Positions 25,739 to 38,321 of a stretch of DNA of 64,000 nt are shown here, piece after piece (the stretch's first letter is position 1; the number at the start of each line of letters is the position of its first letter). A program made the translations under genes and the position numbers. The stretch covers positions 1,178,001-1,242,000 of the forward strand of contig NC_014844.1 in assembly GCF_000176915.2 (NCBI RefSeq). Reading direction: 5' to 3'. The notes beneath the pieces are model-generated. The model ran no database searches and was not told where the DNA came from. It saw only the letters and a program-made list of their open reading frames with translations. The DNA is from Pseudodesulfovibrio aespoeensis Aspo-2. Lineage in GTDB: Bacteria > Desulfobacterota > Desulfovibrionia > Desulfovibrionales > Desulfovibrionaceae.

Positions 25739-28378
25739 ATGCTAAAAGCTCGATATATAATATTTTTTCTCTTTGCCATCTTCTGCCTGACGCCCGCTGC
25801 GGGGCAGGCCGAGATGGCCAAGAAGAACGTCCTCTATCTCAATTCGTACCACCGGGGCTACAAGTGGTCGGACGACATTTTCGATGGCGTGCGCTCTGTG
25901 CTTGAGGCCGGGCCGTACAAGATCGACCTTCAGATCGAATACATGGACATCAAGAAGTACCGGTACGAGGATGTCACCGGCATGCTCCTGCATTTGTACA
26001 TGGAGAAATTCCGGGGCGAGCGGTTTGATGTGGTGCTGGTCTCGGACAACGATGCCTTCAATTTCGCGACCTATTACCGCGAAGAGCTTTTTCCCGGCGT
26101 CCCCCTGGTCTTCTGCGGGGTCAACGCGCTGACCCCCCGCGACCTCGAAGTGGGCAACCTGACCGGCGTGGTGGAGAATTTCGACCTCTCCCTGACCCTG
26201 GACGTGGCCCGCAGGCTCCACCCGGACAAGAGACACATGGTCGTGGTGGGCGATGCGTCCACAGCCGGGCTCGCCATCAAGCGTCAGATCGAGGACGCCG
26301 TGCCCCGGTACGAGCCACAGCTGGTGGTGGACTACTGGACCCACCTCTCGCTGCCCGACGTGCTCGAAAGGGTCAGGCGGCTTCCGCCCGACACCTTCCT
26401 CTTCTTCATCCCCTACTATCAGACCATGGGGAATAATTTCTACACAGCCGAGGAGGTGATGGCGGCCATCTACGCCAATTCGAGCGTGCCCATCTACACG
26501 GCGTGGGAATTTCTCATCGGCCACGGCGCGGTGGGAGGGCGCGTCCTTTCGGGCTATCAGCACGGCCAGGCAGCGGCGGGCATGGTCCTTGAAATCCTCG
26601 GCGGCAAGTCTGTCGACGACATTCCCGTTGATCACGAATATGCCGGAGACTTTGTCTTTGATTACAACGTAATGGACCGGCTGAACCTGACCGAGGACAT
26701 GCTTCCGGAGGGCAGCCGCATCATCAATGCGCCCAAGGCCTTCTACGAACTGCCCAAGGAGCTGTTCTGGACCATCATGGTCAGCTTCGCGCTGCTGCTG
26801 GTGGTGACGGTGTTCCTGATCTTCGCCATGCTCGCGCGGCGCAAGGTGGAGCGCAAGATCAAGGACCAGCTCGCCTTCCAGGAAACGCTCATGGACACCG
26901 TGCCGCAGTTGCTCGCGTGGAAGGACATGAACGGGCGGTATCTCGGCGTCAACCGGGCCTTTGCCGAATTCTTCGGGTACAAGGATTCCGCGTTCGTCGT
27001 CTCCAAGACCACCCGCGAGGTCATCGTCGATAGCGAGTACGCCACGTGGGCCTTCAATGCGGACCAGCAGGCCATGCGCGACCCCGAGGCCGTGCGCAAG
27101 GTACGCCGCAAGCTCGAAGACGGGGCGGGCAACCAGGGGTGGCTTGAGATCAGCAAGGTGCCCATCCGCGACCAGTCGGGCCGGGTGGTGGGCCTGCTCA
27201 GCACGGCGGAGAACATCACCAAGGAGCACAACCTCGAAAAACAGCTCCTGCAATCGCAGAAAATGGAGGCCATCGGCACCCTGGCTGGCGGCATTGCGCA
27301 TGATTTCAACAATATCCTGACTTCCATTATCAATTCTACCGAGTTGGCCCTGGGCGATGTGGAGCCCGATTCCGTGACCCGGCGCGACCTGGAGCGCGTG
27401 CTCAAGGCCGCCCGGCGGGGAGGTCGCGTGGTCAAGCAGATCCTCGCCTTCAGCCGCCCCTCCACCGAGGGGTTTCGGTCCACGGACGTTGGCGCGGTGG
27501 TGTCCGAGGCCTTGGGATTTCTGGAGGCGTCCATGCCCAGCAACATCGCGGTCCGCTCGCTTGTGGCCCCGTCTCTTTCCTGCGTGCTGGCCGACCCCAC
27601 CCAGCTGCATCAGGTGGCCATGAACCTGTTCACCAACGCCTTCCACGCCCTGCGCGAGCAGGGCGGGGTCATTGAGGCGCGGGTGGAGCAGGTGCTTCTC
27701 GACGAGGACGAGGCTGGCGTCATCGGTCTGAACCACGGCTGGCATGTGCGTCTGACCATTGAGGACAACGGACCGGGCATCCCGCCGGAGATCGTGGACA
27801 AGATATTCGACCCGTTCTTCTCCACCAAGGACAAGACCGAAGGCACCGGGCTCGGACTGGCCGTGGTCCATGGCATCGTCAGGAGCCACAAGGGCGGGCT
27901 GCAGGTTTCGCCCAGAATCGGCGGCGGCACGGTCTTTGAGGTCTATCTGCCCAGAGCCGACGAGGCCGATGCCGAATGCCAGGCCCCGGCCAGCGACCGG
28001 GCGCGGCAGGGCGGCCACATCCTTTTTGTGGAGGATGACGAGGACCAACTCGATGCCACCCCGCGCCTGCTTGAGGTCATGGGCTACCAGGTGACGCCGG
28101 TGCGCAGCCCGGAGTCGGCCCTGGCCTTGGTCAGGATGTCCCCGTGCCCCTTTGACCTGCTCATTACCGATTACGACATGCCCGGCCTGAGCGGCACCCA
28201 GCTGGCCCGGCGGGTGGGCGATCTGGTGCCGCTGCTGCCGGTGATCCTGGTTTCCGGGCGTGAAGATGCCGCCATGGCGGCCTCGGACTTGCCCAATATC
28301 CGTCAGGTGGTTATCAAGCCATACGACAAGGATGATCTGGCAACCGCCATCGCCAGTGCCCTTGCTGTGGCAGGATGA
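25739..28378 (+). CDS. hybrid sensor histidine kinase with periplasmic binding-protein-like sensor (LurR partner candidate)
   Basis: 879 residues. A signal/anchor helix is followed by a periplasmic ABC_sub_bind-like domain (about 28-330: NVLYLNSYHRGYKWSDD), a membrane helix (about 342-365), a PAS domain, a HisKA domain with phospho-acceptor His521 in GGIAHDFNN, an ATPase domain (EDNGPGIPPE, GTGLGLAVVHG) and a C-terminal receiver with Asp811. It lies 20 bp before the sigma54 response regulator, so the two form a two-component system. In D. vulgaris a hybrid kinase gene (DVU3022) sits beside the lactate regulator LurR. The signal sensed is unknown; a small organic molecule is plausible. Confidence 0.9.
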   Translation: MLKARYIIFFLFAIFCLTPAAGQAEMAKKNVLYLNSYHRGYKWSDDIFDGVRSVLEAGPYKIDLQIEYMDIKKYRYEDVTGMLLHLYMEKFRGERFDVVLVSDNDAFNFATYYREELFPGVPLVFCGVNALTPRDLEVGNLTGVVENFDLSLTLDVARRLHPDKRHMVVVGDASTAGLAIKRQIEDAVPRYEPQLVVDYWTHLSLPDVLERVRRLPPDTFLFFIPYYQTMGNNFYTAEEVMAAIYANSSVPIYTAWEFLIGHGAVGGRVLSGYQHGQAAAGMVLEILGGKSVDDIPVDHEYAGDFVFDYNVMDRLNLTEDMLPEGSRIINAPKAFYELPKELFWTIMVSFALLLVVTVFLIFAMLARRKVERKIKDQLAFQETLMDTVPQLLAWKDMNGRYLGVNRAFAEFFGYKDSAFVVSKTTREVIVDSEYATWAFNADQQAMRDPEAVRKVRRKLEDGAGNQGWLEISKVPIRDQSGRVVGLLSTAENITKEHNLEKQLLQSQKMEAIGTLAGGIAHDFNNILTSIINSTELALGDVEPDSVTRRDLERVLKAARRGGRVVKQILAFSRPSTEGFRSTDVGAVVSEALGFLEASMPSNIAVRSLVAPSLSCVLADPTQLHQVAMNLFTNAFHALREQGGVIEARVEQVLLDEDEAGVIGLNHGWHVRLTIEDNGPGIPPEIVDKIFDPFFSTKDKTEGTGLGLAVVHGIVRSHKGGLQVSPRIGGGTVFEVYLPRADEADAECQAPASDRARQGGHILFVEDDEDQLDATPRLLEVMGYQVTPVRSPESALALVRMSPCPFDLLITDYDMPGLSGTQLARRVGDLVPLLPVILVSGREDAAMAASDLPNIRQVVIKPYDKDDLATAIASALAVAG

Positions 28379-28398: not shown

Positions 28399-29841
28399 AT
28401 GACCAATATCCTGGTGATAGACGACGACATCGAGGTCTGCGAGACTCTGGAGAGCCTCATAGGCAGGCTGTCGCATGTTTGCGACACGGCCCAGACCCTG
28501 AGCCGGGGAATGGCCCTGGCCAAGGCCGGAAGCTATGACGTCGTCTTCCTCGATGTGAGCCTGCCCGATGGAAACGGACTGGACATCCTGCCCCAGCTCA
28601 TGGCACTGAGCGATCCGCCAGAGGTGATCATCCTCACGGGCCGGGGCGACCCGGACGGCGCGGAGATGGCCATTGAGGGCGGCGTGTGGGATTATCTGCT
28701 CAAACCGTCGAGCGTGCGCGAGATATCCCTGACTCTGGGCCGCGCCCTCAAATACCGCGAAGAGAAGGCGGGCAAGGCCGAGAGTGATTCCCTCGACCTC
28801 AGCGAGGTGGTGGGGGGCAGCCCGACTATCAAGGCGAGCTTCAAGCTCATGGCCCAGGCCGCGCGCTCGGACACCAATGTGCTCATCACCGGCGAGACCG
28901 GCACGGGCAAGGAACTTTTCGCTTCCACCATCCATCAGAATTCCAGGAGGCACGGTGGCCAGTTCGTGGTGGTGGACTGCGCCGGGCTGACCGAGACCCT
29001 GGTGGAATCCACCCTGTTCGGCCACCGCAAGGGGGCGTTCACCGGAGCCCAGGCTGACCGCATCGGCCTGATCAAGCTGGCCGACAAGGGGACGCTTTTT
29101 CTGGACGAGGTGGGCGAGATGCCCCTGTCCATCCAGAAAGTGTTCTTGCGCGTGCTTCAGGAGCGCACCTTCCGCCCGGTGGGCGATACTCGCGAGCAGA
29201 CCAGCGATTTCCGGCTCGTGGCCGCCACCAACCGCGACCTCGACGCCATGGTGGAACAGGGACAGTTCAGGGCCGATCTGCTCTTTCGCATCAAGACCAT
29301 GCGCATCCATCTGCCGCCGCTCTCCCAGCGGCCCGAGGATATCCGCGCCCTGGCCCTGTTTCAGGTGATACGGCTGTGCGAGCACTACGGCATGGAGAAG
29401 AAGAATTTCGGCTCCAATTTCTTCACCACCCTGGAGAGCTACAGCTGGCCGGGAAATGTCAGGGAACTCTTCAATATCCTGGAGAGGGCCGTGATCGAGG
29501 CGGGCCAGGAAAGGACCATCTACGCCATGCACCTGCCGCGCGCCCTGCGCATCGAGGTGGCCAAGGCGCAGATCGAGCGCATGACCGGCTCCCATGTGGT
29601 CACCGTCGGTTCCGGCCTGGTGGACGGGGTGTCTGTCCGAAAAATCGGACAGGAGATTTTCGAGGACATCTTTGACCAGGCCCTGCCTTCGCTGCGCGAG
29701 TTCAAGGGTACGGCGGAAAAGGTCTATCTTGGCGAACTGATCCGTCAGAGCGCGGGAGACCTGGCGCAGATCCTGAATGTGTCGGGGCTTTCGCGGTCCC
29801 ATCTCTACTCGTTGCTCAAGAAGTATGGGTTGTCCCTGTGA
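28399..29841 (+). CDS. lurR: sigma54-dependent response regulator, probable lactate regulator LurR
   Basis: 480 residues. An N-terminal receiver has Asp52 (FLDVSLPDG); the AAA+ domain has GETGTGKE and the sigma54-contacting GAFTGA loop (residues 212-217); a Fis-type helix-turn-helix closes the protein. It lies downstream of the sensor kinase and upstream of the lactate operon, matching DVU3023 (LurR) of D. vulgaris, which activates the lactate operon with sigma54. The gene name rests on this synteny and domain layout. The por promoter in this window has the expected enhancer and -24/-12 elements. Confidence 0.85.
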   Translation: MTNILVIDDDIEVCETLESLIGRLSHVCDTAQTLSRGMALAKAGSYDVVFLDVSLPDGNGLDILPQLMALSDPPEVIILTGRGDPDGAEMAIEGGVWDYLLKPSSVREISLTLGRALKYREEKAGKAESDSLDLSEVVGGSPTIKASFKLMAQAARSDTNVLITGETGTGKELFASTIHQNSRRHGGQFVVVDCAGLTETLVESTLFGHRKGAFTGAQADRIGLIKLADKGTLFLDEVGEMPLSIQKVFLRVLQERTFRPVGDTREQTSDFRLVAATNRDLDAMVEQGQFRADLLFRIKTMRIHLPPLSQRPEDIRALALFQVIRLCEHYGMEKKNFGSNFFTTLESYSWPGNVRELFNILERAVIEAGQERTIYAMHLPRALRIEVAKAQIERMTGSHVVTVGSGLVDGVSVRKIGQEIFEDIFDQALPSLREFKGTAEKVYLGELIRQSAGDLAQILNVSGLSRSHLYSLLKKYGLSL

Positions 29842-29936: not shown

Positions 29937-30071
29937 ATGCCGGGTTATCCGCACTATTTTTTGCGGGCGGGCGTTTTTGGGCTTCCTTTCATTTCGTCAA
30001 GTGTGTATGGAGGGCTAATACTTTTGCGTTCCACGCACGGTAACCATTTTCATCAAATAGGAGAGACACAG

Positions 30072-30344
30072 ATGACCAAAGCAGAACTTGTTGCCAAAAT
30101 CGCTGAGAAGAACGGCACCTCCAAGGCCCAGGCCGAGGCGTCCATGAATGCCATCCTCGATGTCATTCAGGGCGAGCTGGCCGCTGGAAACAAACTGACC
30201 CTGACGGGCTTCGGCACCTTCAGCGTCAGCGAGAGGAAGGCCCGCACCGGTCGCAACCCGCGCACCGGCAAGGAAATCAAGATTCCGGCCTGCAAGGTCG
30301 CTCAGTTCAAGCCCGGCAAGGTTCTGAAGGAAGCTGTGAAGTAG
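30072..30344 (+). CDS. HU-family DNA-binding protein
   Basis: 90 residues, standard HU length. It has MTKAELVAKIAEKNGTSKAQAE and the DNA-binding arm region GTFSVSERKARTGRNPRTG with IPACKVAQFKPG. HU bends DNA and shapes the nucleoid. GGAGAG precedes the ATG. It has its own terminator and sits between the LurR-like gene and the lactate operon. IHF/HU-type bending often assists sigma54 promoters, but a functional link here is only a thought. Confidence 0.93.
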   Translation: MTKAELVAKIAEKNGTSKAQAEASMNAILDVIQGELAAGNKLTLTGFGTFSVSERKARTGRNPRTGKEIKIPACKVAQFKPGKVLKEAVK

Positions 30345-30397: not shown

Positions 30398-30472
30398 CTG
30401 TTTCCTGGCCTTGCAGTCAAGGGCGTGGTAGCCCTGCAGCATTGGAAATCAACGCAAACACCAGGAATAGTC

Positions 30473-31066
30473 ATGAACCGCATCAGCGAGATTCTCGAAA
30501 AGATTGGCACGCTGGAAAACGAACTTTCCACCGAACTGGAGCGAAGGCACGACGAGCTGCGCGGCGTCATCAAGGAAAAAAAAGCGTGGTTCAGCGACGA
30601 GGTGGACCGGCGGCACAGGGAACTCGCCACACGGTTTCTGGATTACGTCTACGACTCCGGTTTCCTGAAGATACTGACCATTCCCGTCATCTGGGCCGCG
30701 CTGATCCCGGCGGTGTTTCTGGATATGGTGGTCTGCGTCTACCAGTTGGTCTGCTTTCCGGTGTACGGCATCCCGCGCGTCAGGCGTGGCCGGTATTTGG
30801 TCATTGACCGGTATGCCCTGGGCTACCTCAACTGGCTTGAGAAATGCAACTGCGTCTATTGCGGCTACTTCAACGGGTTGATGAGTTTTATACGCGAGGT
30901 GGCGGCCAGGACCGAGCAGTACTGGTGCCCGATACGCCACGCAAGGCCGGTGGTGCCCCACAGCCGCTACAAGCATTTCTTCGACTTCGGCGATGCCGGG
31001 GCCTACCGCGACGGGTTGGCCGAGGTCCGCAAAAAGTTTGATGACGTGGAGTCATACCGCAACTGA
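30473..31066 (+). CDS. hypothetical membrane-associated protein with N-terminal coiled coil
   Basis: 197 residues, not recognised. The first 60 residues are strongly charged and heptad-like (coiled coil). One or two membrane segments follow at about 64-100. The C-terminal part has NCVYCGYFNGLMS and CPIRHARPVVPHSRYKHFFD, whose Cys and His residues could bind metal. AGGA lies before the ATG at 30473. It occupies the position next to por where D. vulgaris has a conserved hypothetical gene; a role in the lactate system is not shown. Confidence 0.7.
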   Translation: MNRISEILEKIGTLENELSTELERRHDELRGVIKEKKAWFSDEVDRRHRELATRFLDYVYDSGFLKILTIPVIWAALIPAVFLDMVVCVYQLVCFPVYGIPRVRRGRYLVIDRYALGYLNWLEKCNCVYCGYFNGLMSFIREVAARTEQYWCPIRHARPVVPHSRYKHFFDFGDAGAYRDGLAEVRKKFDDVESYRN

Positions 31067-31104
31067 CCCGGCCTCGGGAACCTCTCACTGCCCGGCGTGT
31101 CCCT

Positions 31105-31146
31105 AAAAAAGGATGAGTCTGTTTTTTCGGATTCATCCTTTTGTTG
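31105..31146 (+). terminator. terminator of the 197-residue hypothetical gene
   Basis: AAAAGGATGA pairs with TCATCCTTTT around a T-rich loop, followed by GTTGTGTTTTT. Confidence 0.75.
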
Positions 31147-31230
31147 TGTTTTTATTGCGAAGTGGTACAAGTAATGACCAGATACTCCCGTTTGGCGCGA
31201 TCTTTCTTTCATCCCGGGGGTGTGGCTCCT

Positions 31231-31258
31231 GTCCGGTTTTCCGGACGCAGGGGCGTCC
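31231..31258. promoter_or_regulatory. tandem GTCC/GGAC palindromes, candidate LurR enhancer sites
   Basis: GTCCGGTTTTCCGGAC (31231-31246) and GGACGCAGGGGCGTCC (31243-31258) are perfect 16-bp inverted repeats that share GGAC. The result is three half-sites, each separated by 8 bp. They lie about 110-120 bp upstream of the predicted start, the normal distance for enhancer-binding proteins. No T run follows, so this is not a terminator. Binding by LurR is inferred. Confidence 0.55.
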
Positions 31259-31330
31259 CCGCTCTGGTCCTCGCGCAGTCTTCCTATTACAACATTTCGC
31301 TATGTTTGAACAAATGGTGAATCACCCATC

Positions 31331-31347
31331 TTGGCATGGAAGTTGAT
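31331..31347 (+). promoter_or_regulatory. sigma54 (-24/-12) promoter of the lactate operon
   Basis: TTGGCATGGAAGTTGAT matches TTGGCAC-N5-TTGCW with GG at -24 and TTG at the -12 element; the final C of GC is A. The start would be near 31358, about 75 nt before the por ATG. The upstream palindromes support the call. Confidence 0.55.
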
Positions 31348-31356
31348 GCAGGGAGT

Positions 31357-35035
<3,679 letters not shown>

Positions 35036-35159: not shown

Positions 35160-36833
35160 ATGTACACGTTAATGGCACTGGCACCGATTCTCACGGTGTT
35201 CTTCTTCCTGGTAATTTTGCGCTGGCCTGCCAAAAAGGCCATGCCCCTGGCCCTGATCGTGGCCGCCGGCCTGGCGTACTTCGTCTGGCAGGTTTCCGGC
35301 ATGGTCATCGCCGCTTCCATCATCCAGGGTCTCGCGATCACTATCGCCATCCTCTGGATCGTCTTCGGCGCGCTCCTGATGCTCAACACCCTGACCAACA
35401 GCGGGGCCATCGCGGCCATTCGCGCAGGGTTCATGGACATCACCCCGGACCGTCGAATCCAAGCCATGATCATCGCCTGGTGCTTCGGTGCCTTCATCGA
35501 GGGCGCGGCCGGTTTCGGCACCCCTGCAGCGGTCTGCGCACCGCTGCTCATGGCGCTGGGCTTCCCGGCCATGGCTTCGGTCACCGTGGCCCTGATCATC
35601 CAGTCCACCCCGGTCACCTTTGGCGCGGTCGGCACCCCGATCCTGCTCGGCGTGCGCACCGGCCTGGACAACCCCATTGTCCATGACCTGCTGGGTAAAA
35701 ACGGTATCGCCTTCATGGACTACATCTTCGAGATCGGTGCCACCGCCGCCATCATGCACGGCATCATCGGCATCATGATCCCGACCTTCCTGGCCGTCAT
35801 GCTGACCCGCTTCTTCTCCAAGGAGAAGTCCATCGCCAGGGGTCTTGAGGCCCTGCCTTTCGGCATCTTTGCCGGTCTGGCCTTCACTGTTCCCTACATG
35901 CTGGTGGCCTGGTTCCTCGGCCCCGAGTTCCCGTCCCTGATCGGCGGCCTCGTCGGTCTGGCCCTGGTCGTCACCGCTGCCAAGAACAACTTCCTCACCC
36001 CCAAGAACACCTGGGACTTCGACGATCGTTCCGAGTGGCCCTCCGCCTGGATGGGTACCTGGGAGCCGAAGTTCGCCAAGGCTCCCGAGCACATGACCTT
36101 GCTCAAGGCCTGGGCTCCGTACGTCCTGGTCGGCCTGTTCCTGGTCATGTCCCGCAAGATCGATTGGATCAAGGGTGCCCTGACCTCGGTCAAGATTCCC
36201 ATCAACAACATCTTTGACACCGGCATCGGCTACGTCATTGACCCCCTGTACATTCCCGGTTTCATCTTCGTGTGCGCCGTCATCTGCGCCTTCTTCATCC
36301 AGCGGATGAAGGTCAAGGACCTCTCTGATGCGGCCAAGCAGTCCTTCAAGACCACGGTGCAGGCGTCCTTTGCCCTTGGATTCGCCATCCCCATGGTGCG
36401 CGTGTTCATCAACTCCGGCGAGAAGTTCAACGCCTCTGGGCTGGCTTCCATGCCCCTTGAGCTGGCCAACGGCGTCGCCGCCCTGGCGGGTACCGCGTGG
36501 ACCGGCTTTGCGGCGGTCATCGGCTCCCTGGGTGCCTTCATCGCGGGTTCGAACACCGTGTCCAACATGATGTTCTCCCTGTTCCAGTTCGGCGTGGCCT
36601 CCCAGATCGACGTGCCGCAGTCCATCATCGTGGCCCTGCAGGCCGTGGGCGGCGCTGCCGGCAACATGATCACGGTCCACAATGTCGTGGCCGCCGCCGC
36701 AGTGGTGGGCCTGATGGACCGCGAGGGCGAGATCATCCGCAAGACCCTCATCCCCATGACCTATTACCTGATCTTCGCCGCCATCATCGGCACCGTCATG
36801 ATCAGTTCCGGTTGGGGCACTGTCCTGAAGTAA
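35160..36833 (+). CDS. lctP: L-lactate permease (LctP family)
   Basis: 557 residues with about thirteen membrane helices. [19 protein letters not shown] and [19 protein letters not shown] are the hallmark segments of the lactate/glycolate permease family, which imports lactate with protons. GAGGAG precedes the ATG at 35160. It lies between por and the D-lactate dehydrogenase gene, as in D. vulgaris (DVU3026). Confidence 0.95.
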
Positions 36834-36926: not shown

Positions 36927-38321
36927 ATGGGTGCTGAAAAGCTCATCAAGGATTTTGAGGCCGCAGTCGGTGCGGACAATGTTATGACCAGCGAGACTGA
37001 TCGCCACGCCTATTCCTATGATGCGGCGGTGCTCGATTCCGTCATGCCTGCCATGGTCGTCCGGCCCACCACCAGCGAGGCGCTGGGCCAGGCCACCAAG
37101 CTGTGTAACGACAACGGACTTCCGCTCACCGTGCGCGGCGCGGGAACCAACCTTTCCGGCGGCACCATCCCCCATCCGGGTGGTGTGGTCGTCCTGACCA
37201 ATGGCTTGAGCCGCATCCTCGAGATCAACGAGGCGGACATGTACGCCGTGGTCGAGCCGGGCGTGATCACGGCCAAGTTCGCCGCAGAAGTGGCCAAGCG
37301 CGGCCTGTTCTATCCGCCCGATCCGGGCAGCCAGACCGTCTCCACCCTGGGCGGCAACGTGGCCGAGAATGCGGGCGGCCTGCGCGGCCTAAAGTACGGT
37401 GTGACCAAGGACTACGTCATGGGCGTGGACTTCTGGGACGTGAACGGCCAGATGGTCAAGTCCGGCTCGCGTACGGTCAAGTGTGTCACCGGCTACAACC
37501 TGTCCGGGCTCATGATCGCCTCCGAGGGCACGCTGGGCGTGTTCGACAGGATCATCCTCAAGCTCATTCCCCCGCCGCAGGCAGCCAAGTCCATGATGGC
37601 CATCTTCCCCTCCATGAAGGCCGCTTCCGAGACCGTGGCCGCCATCATCGCCAACAAGATCGTGCCCGCCACCCTTGAGATGATGGACAACTTCACCATC
37701 CGCGCGGTGGAGAATTTCCGCGGCGCGGGGTTGCCCGTGGATGCGGCGGCCCTGTTGCTGATCGAGGTGGACGGGCATCCGGCCCAGGTGGCCGACGAGG
37801 CCGCCAAGGTCGAGGAAATATGCCGGAAGAACGGTGCCACCGAATTGAAGGTGGCCAAGGACGCCGCCGAGCGCGACGCGGTCTGGCAGGCAAGACGCGA
37901 CGCGCTGCCCGCCCTGGCCAAGCTCAAGCCCACCTGCGTGCTTGAGGATGCCACGGTGCCGCGCTCCAAGATCCCGGCCATGATCGAGGCCCTGGGCCAG
38001 ATCAGCAAGAAGTACGACCTGACCATCGGCACCTTTGGCCACGCGGGCGACGGCAACCTGCACCCGACCATCCTGACCGACAAGCGCGACAAGAAGGAAT
38101 GGGAGCGCGTGGAGCACGCCATCGACGAGATATTCGAGCGCGCCCTGGCCCTGGGCGGCACCCTGTCCGGCGAGCACGGCATCGGCATGGCCAAGTCCAA
38201 GTACCTGGAGCAGGAGACCTCGCGCGCCACGCTGGAATACTCCCGCCGCATGAAGTCCGTTCTCGACCCCAAGGGCATCCTCAATCCCGGCAAGATCATC
38301 GGCCTGAAGTCCGAAGGGTAG
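36927..38321 (+). CDS. dld: FAD-linked D-lactate dehydrogenase (GlcD family)
   Basis: 464 residues. The FAD-binding type 4 domain has VRGAGTNLSGGTIP and PDPGSQTVSTLGGNVAENAGG; the C-terminal domain has FGHAGDGNLHPTIL and GTLSGEHGIGMAKSKYL, typical of GlcD/D-lactate dehydrogenases. It oxidises D-lactate to pyruvate and passes electrons to the Fe-S partner encoded 8 bp downstream. AAGGAGA precedes the ATG. Equivalent to DVU3027. Confidence 0.93.
   Translation: MGAEKLIKDFEAAVGADNVMTSETDRHAYSYDAAVLDSVMPAMVVRPTTSEALGQATKLCNDNGLPLTVRGAGTNLSGGTIPHPGGVVVLTNGLSRILEINEADMYAVVEPGVITAKFAAEVAKRGLFYPPDPGSQTVSTLGGNVAENAGGLRGLKYGVTKDYVMGVDFWDVNGQMVKSGSRTVKCVTGYNLSGLMIASEGTLGVFDRIILKLIPPPQAAKSMMAIFPSMKAASETVAAIIANKIVPATLEMMDNFTIRAVENFRGAGLPVDAAALLLIEVDGHPAQVADEAAKVEEICRKNGATELKVAKDAAERDAVWQARRDALPALAKLKPTCVLEDATVPRSKIPAMIEALGQISKKYDLTIGTFGHAGDGNLHPTILTDKRDKKEWERVEHAIDEIFERALALGGTLSGEHGIGMAKSKYLEQETSRATLEYSRRMKSVLDPKGILNPGKIIGLKSEG

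Follow-up and report, generated by a model that had tools for sequence, protein, structure and literature searches.

Lactate oxidation is the chief mode of growth of the sulfate reducers considered here. In Desulfovibrio vulgaris Hildenborough, DVU3025-3033 are controlled by LurR and sigma54, LurR being the first two-component and the first sigma54-dependent activator described for lactate use (PMC6456213). It is required for lactate activation and has 16-bp sites (e.g., GTCCGCTTTTTCAGAC), which occur upstream of por across the order; the promoter reads ATTGGCACATTTCTTGTTA (PMC6456213).

The locus described here lies in a window of 64,000 nucleotides from Pseudodesulfovibrio aespoeensis Aspo-2 (NC_014844.1, positions 1,178,001 to 1,242,000; genome of 3.63 Mb), and was compared with relatives in the genus group Pseudodesulfovibrio (hereafter, the genus). 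It resembles the D. vulgaris system in an operon that starts with por and lactate permease, in the class of its regulator, in a -24/-12 promoter, in having several sites, and in a 16-bp site with a central T/A tract (PMC6456213), and it very likely belongs to the LurR system. Our main reading, to which we give a probability of roughly 0.83, is that the window contains a LurR/sigma54 control region of the lactate operon in which two LurR sites have a second function.

Gene order and regulator

The genes concerned are as follows (window coordinates throughout):

25739..28378, + strand: hybrid histidine kinase, presumed LurS partner (Pfam ABC_sub_bind sensor, PAS, HisKA, HATPase, and receiver)
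28399..29841, + strand: lurR-like gene (open reading frame; Pfam receiver Response_reg and AAA+ domain Sigma54_activat; GAFTGA)
about 30069..30344, + strand: HU-family DNA-binding protein gene (Pfam Bac_DNA_binding, 4.6e-35)
30467..31066, + strand: hypothetical protein gene, with its stop 50 bp before the distal LurR site
31433..35035, + strand: por, pyruvate:ferredoxin oxidoreductase (TIGR02176, 1943 bits)
35160..36833, + strand: lactate permease (Pfam Lactate_perm, 1.1e-111)
36927..38321, + strand: FAD-linked oxidase, presumed D-lactate dehydrogenase (Pfam)

An earlier note on this DNA took the gene upstream of the operon to encode a sigma54 regulator. The class was right: lurR encodes a sigma54-dependent response regulator (Response_reg plus Sigma54_activat), GAFTGA can be read in its translation, and its C-terminal end appeared helix-turn-helix-like by eye. 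The implied adjacency to por was not, as the HU and hypothetical genes intervene between lurR and the por-led lactate operon. The hypothetical gene had no Pfam or NCBIfam matches, and the por start at MSKMKTMDG (31433) was favored over one at 31397. Most genomes of the genus keep lurR and por linked, and 35/36 contain a match to the regulator (E up to 1e-150), although the one in G206, at just 55% identity, is possibly a paralogue; G282 had no regulator match. The HU-family DNA-bending protein gene, between lurR and por in the window, is downstream of lurR in several relatives. DNA bending is a frequent aid to sigma54 activation.

The kinase combines an ABC_sub_bind sensor with one stretch matched by several PAS models, whereas LurS of D. 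vulgaris has three PAS domains (PMC6456213). With a sensor domain resembling ABC transporter substrate-binding proteins, the kinase at 25739-28378 may sense its ligand differently from LurS.

The proximal LurR site and the sigma54 promoter

Three elements lie between the hypothetical gene and por in the region first singled out:

31231..31246, + strand: proximal LurR site GTCCGGTTTTCCGGAC (GTCC-N8-GGAC; published LurR motif, with equivalents genus-wide)
31243..31258, + strand: second palindrome of the earlier note, GGACGCAGGGGCGTCC (GGAC-N8-GTCC; half-site order opposite to that of LurR sites)
31331..31347, + strand: sigma54-type -24/-12 promoter TTGGCATGGAAGTTGAT (TGGCAY genus-wide)

The three half-sites that had been proposed to form two overlapping 16-bp palindromes are present (GTCC at 31231-31234, GGAC at 31243-31246, and GTCC at 31255-31258, with 8-bp gaps), as is the -24/-12 promoter at 31331-31347. 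Only the first palindrome held up as a LurR site: it is conserved and, on comparison with the published motif, matches the 16-bp sites (PMC6456213), whereas the second has the reversed half-site order, is broken in the window's closest relative (L057, where the last half-site is GACC), belongs to a type common in the window, and is probably incidental. The palindromes do lie upstream of the promoter, but 100 bp from it, first base to first base (a gap of 84 bp), rather than the "about 110 bp" given.

Conservation was assessed in 27 regions, comprising the window and the lurR-linked stretches of 26 relatives in which por fell within the fetched stretch. One duplicate row was dropped (L003, of L064), as were L090-L092, whose regulator matches of 53-55% identity were taken as paralogues and include G206's only match. 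All 27 carry GTCY-N8-RGAC between -196 and -217 relative to the start of por, and TGGCAY at -94 to -116, mostly followed by N5-TTGA or TTGT (a stricter regular expression for the promoter missed L088), and the spacing from proximal site to promoter is nearly fixed at 100-106 bp. For seven loci of the genus (L058, L060, L061, L063, L066, L083, and L085), the fetched stretch did not include por. The gene was then located in G080, G093, G146, G188, G298, and G206, giving six extra regions in which either lurR and por are not neighbors in that stretch or the match to LurR is weak; both the proximal and distal sites (6/6) and the promoter motif (6/6) precede por there as well. Outside the genus, sites of LurR type precede por in most of the por-linked loci and genera examined.

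Taken on their own, the window's elements are about as frequent as chance predicts: GTCC-N8-GGAC was found at 2 places (1.53 expected), GGAC-N8-GTCC at 5 (1.82 expected; 5 was reached in 6/100 shuffles), and the promoter pattern, with at most one mismatch, at 1 (0.67 expected). It is because each is conserved in 27/27 genus regions that the first palindrome and the promoter exceed chance. The relaxed LurR-type pattern GTCYNNWWWWNNRGAY gave 7 strand matches at 5 places versus 0.26 expected, none of 100 shuffles reached 7, and 4 of the 5 places fall inside the 1.6 kb spanning lurR to por. Across the whole genome, the pattern GTCYNNWWWWNNRGAC occurs at 4 places, whereas its reversed control gave 7 matches per strand; a LurR regulon drawn from this pattern was rejected for lack of enrichment. 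Two of these genome places lie outside lurR-por, and the open reading frames listed there show no link to lactate genes.

The -24/-12 element of the window resembles the published ATTGGCACATTTCTTGTTA (PMC6456213), a sequence that was itself found in 0/297 genomes searched, and the exact published LurR sites matched 60 loci only once, through one 16-mer in L121. LurR control from a sigma54 promoter through the first palindrome is well supported, as both site and promoter match those of D. vulgaris (PMC6456213). The earlier note's "concrete candidate site" is accordingly of LurR type, but it is not new, because LurR sites before por were already known across the order (PMC6456213).

A separate observation concerns the por 5' leader (31358-31432), where a hairpin-like TCCG...CGGA element with variable loops occurs in 18/27 genus regions, about 23-30 bp past the -12 element.

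A LurR box inside lurR

One match of the genome pattern search, made prior to any look at conservation, falls inside the regulator gene and had also escaped the earlier note:

29635..29650, + strand: intragenic LurR box GTCCGAAAAATCGGAC (codons 413-418 of lurR, encoding VRKIGQ)

The box is at -204 from the lurR stop in 26/34 genus rows and, at the same distance, in 3/3 Desulfobulbales relatives (Desulfopila and Desulfogranum). In a scan of synonymous constraint across 29 full-length genus lurR genes (one of 30 was dropped as partial), the five-codon stretch at the box ranked first of 433 in excess of identical synonymous codons (0.336; mean 0.087, sd 0.067), and the box is present in 23 of these genes versus 1.52 expected from synonymous shuffles. 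The box is kept in two genomes where por is distant from lurR (G080, 7.9 kb away, and G093, more than 1 Mb away) and is lost in G146, in which the two genes are also apart.

We consider it unlikely that the box is kept for the protein or as an mRNA hairpin, and not as a DNA operator. A conserved peptide does follow VRKIGQ in the genus, and the palindrome could fold as RNA. Codon choice at the box, however, is skewed, with GGA in 26/29 genes versus 17% of Gly codons in these genes and CGA in 16/29 (25 have Arg there) versus 9% of Arg codons, at the site ranked 1/433. Furthermore, two other genera, g6 (9/9) and g13 (8/12), carry the same DNA palindrome 208-235 bp ahead of the stop codon of lurR, but read in a different frame, so that it mostly encodes SEKSD or SEKKD. 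In 17/17 of these boxes, a codon ending in G is followed by TCT and GAC comes last (backgrounds of 24% and 39%, respectively), while the residue before Asp varies. Copies such as GTCTGAAAAAAAAGAC also retain the half-sites without an extended RNA stem, which argues against the mRNA hairpin. Since the box is read in different frames, selection at the DNA level can be separated from selection on the protein, and the former is well supported. The box was found in 0/19 genomes of ten other por-linked genera (last 420 bp of lurR), and in 2/20 regulators without an adjacent por, at other positions.

There is likewise only a small chance that the box is bound by LurR but inert. Many intragenic PhoB sites of Escherichia coli are transcriptionally inert, and such sites are common (PMC10294691), but inert sites should neither hold synonymous constraint nor reappear in another frame. 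The most likely role of the box is in the action of LurR on its own lurR operon; it could provide negative feedback as a roadblock, or else serve as an enhancer from a distance.

A further question is which regulator would use these sites. It would surprise us if they served another member of the class, NrfR-like or a paralogue, instead of the lurR product: in D. vulgaris this motif is also bound by NrfR (PMC6456213), and the window genome encodes relatives that are 44 and 50% identical to the regulator, but few genomes carry both systems (PMC6456213), lurR and por are linked in most genus genomes, and the intragenic box connects the motif with lurR.

The distal LurR site and the predicted upstream terminator

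The true second intergenic site, unnoticed in the earlier note, lies 114 bp upstream of the proximal one and coincides with a predicted terminator:

31117..31132, + strand: distal LurR site GTCTGTTTTTTCGGAT (one base off strict consensus)
31107..31152, + strand: intrinsic terminator of the hypothetical gene (15-pair hairpin at 31107-31142 and a T-rich tail; terminator scan)

Distal sites occur at -296 to -331 from the por start in 27/27 genus regions and are strict in 25, the exceptions being the window and L057, which end in GGAT where the strict consensus has GGAC. The distance to the proximal site ranges from 98 to 121 bp and is clustered at 98-102 bp (11 regions) and 109-114 bp (15), with one region at 121 bp. 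A 10.5-bp periodicity this strong arose in only 1 of 20,000 random sets, but the fit is a little better with periods of 11-12 and the test does not correct for relatedness, so helical phasing is no more than hinted at.

The window's hairpin at 31107-31142 has the distal site as its apex and upper stem, and the RNA fold of the terminator has a free energy of -20.8 kcal/mol (z -6.9; 0/200 shuffles as low). We called terminators by a fixed rule that required 3/4 or more of the core pairs, 4 or more outer pairs of which 2 are G-C, and 5 or more T in 8. Among the genus regions it called 14/27 distal and 0/27 proximal sites, and among the six extra regions 2/6 distal and 1/6 proximal (L158); the L158 call is probably a false positive, and the caller therefore yields some. 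The outer arms of the distal site vary between species, yet 102/156 positions pair across 26 genomes (L069 was omitted as near-identical to L068) versus a permuted mean of 75.3, with 0/5000 permutations as high. Counts of this kind are raised by relatedness among the genomes, but the proximal flanks, a control with the same ancestry, gave 61 pairs versus 57.3 (1257/5000 as high).

The fusion of operator and terminator tracks gene order. Where a separate same-strand gene ends 5-52 bp before the site, 14/16 regions were called, versus 0/11 of the regions with no such upstream gene, among them L088, in which the gene stopping 23 bp ahead of the site is lurR. The upstream gene in those 16 is a hypothetical gene in the window and a methyladenine glycosylase in the other 15, as identified by Pfam on the first 60 residues for L068 and by similar N-termini for the other 14. 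Termination in vivo at 31107-31152, and any effect of LurR on it, are predictions from these patterns.

That the distal element is a mere terminator resembling a LurR site by chance is highly improbable, since the palindrome is kept in place in 13 armless regions and 6/6 other por loci, with spacings of 98-102 or 109-114 bp in 26/27, even though 14/27 regions score as terminators and the window copy is one base off consensus. A loose site at 31099-31114, found only in the window and within the terminator flank, was taken as chance.

Recurrence of the fusion outside the genus

In 11/12 genomes of genus g13, the middle one of the LurR sites doubles as the terminator of lurR itself, 52-183 bp past the lurR stop. 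For por-linked sites outside Pseudodesulfovibrio, the rule called 11/37 in g13 and 0/63 in eleven other genera; sites whose core was G+C-rich, or that sat too near the beginning of the cut region, were left out. A tree built from 67 por sequences places g1 and g13 in separate clades, and the window pairs with L057, whose distal site is not fused. A short tree search required at least 7 changes of the fused state over the 67 rows, which may be gains or losses.

Most genomes of g13 (L115-L126) have two LurR-type sites ~24 bp apart just past lurR, with the second inside the lurR terminator. In another genus, g2 (L127-L134), a dld gene, not por, follows the lurR-like regulator in the loci checked (L127, L129, and L130), and LurR-type palindromes lie between the two genes in these three.

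Proposed mechanism

The conserved sites and promoter, their spacing, the covarying terminator arms, and the synonymous constraint inside lurR are visible in the sequences; from these we infer LurR binding in P. aespoeensis and lactate activation. Phosphorylated LurR would bind the distal (31117-31132) and proximal (31231-31246) sites and, by looping the DNA, would drive sigma54 polymerase at the TTGGCATGGAAGTTGAT promoter. For regulators of this class, an oligomer that loops to sigma54 polymerase would be well served by two sites separated by some ten helical turns and by constant spacing from the promoter. The distal operator would double as the upper part of the stem in the hypothetical gene's intrinsic terminator. 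Where this operator lies at the point at which the upstream transcript must end, the protein-binding palindrome may have been extended into a terminator, which would keep read-through out of the por enhancer. A further operator would be written into the lurR coding sequence.

A more elaborate version is possible but doubtful. LurR may act as a roadblock on its own operon through the intragenic and terminator operators while serving the por enhancer, the palindrome having been recruited as a terminator more than once; bound LurR would then restrain both the transcription of lurR and any read-through that reaches the por enhancer.

Should the double-duty sites prove functional, they would offer a clean test of two general points: whether the operator of an activator can work as a terminator too, and whether a regulator controls itself via a site in the sequence that encodes it. 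The box in lurR is, moreover, a rare case in which a change of frame splits DNA-level from protein-level selection.

Comparison with known systems

The second purR operator of E. coli is an intragenic operator that acts as a roadblock. The lurR box is similar in being a regulator's site within its own gene, but it lies near the 3' end and is read in different frames in different genera, and its role as an operator is putative. Like the inert PhoB sites of E. coli (PMC10294691), it is a response-regulator site within a gene; unlike them, it is under synonymous constraint. Our searches of an open-access library, and the text consulted of PMC6456213, yielded no mention of the fused terminator or of a LurR box within lurR. 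In D. vulgaris, three LurR sites are placed at -389, -350, and -250 and the promoter at -136 from por (PMC6456213), whereas P. aespoeensis has two intergenic sites, the distal one within a predicted terminator, and an additional box inside lurR.
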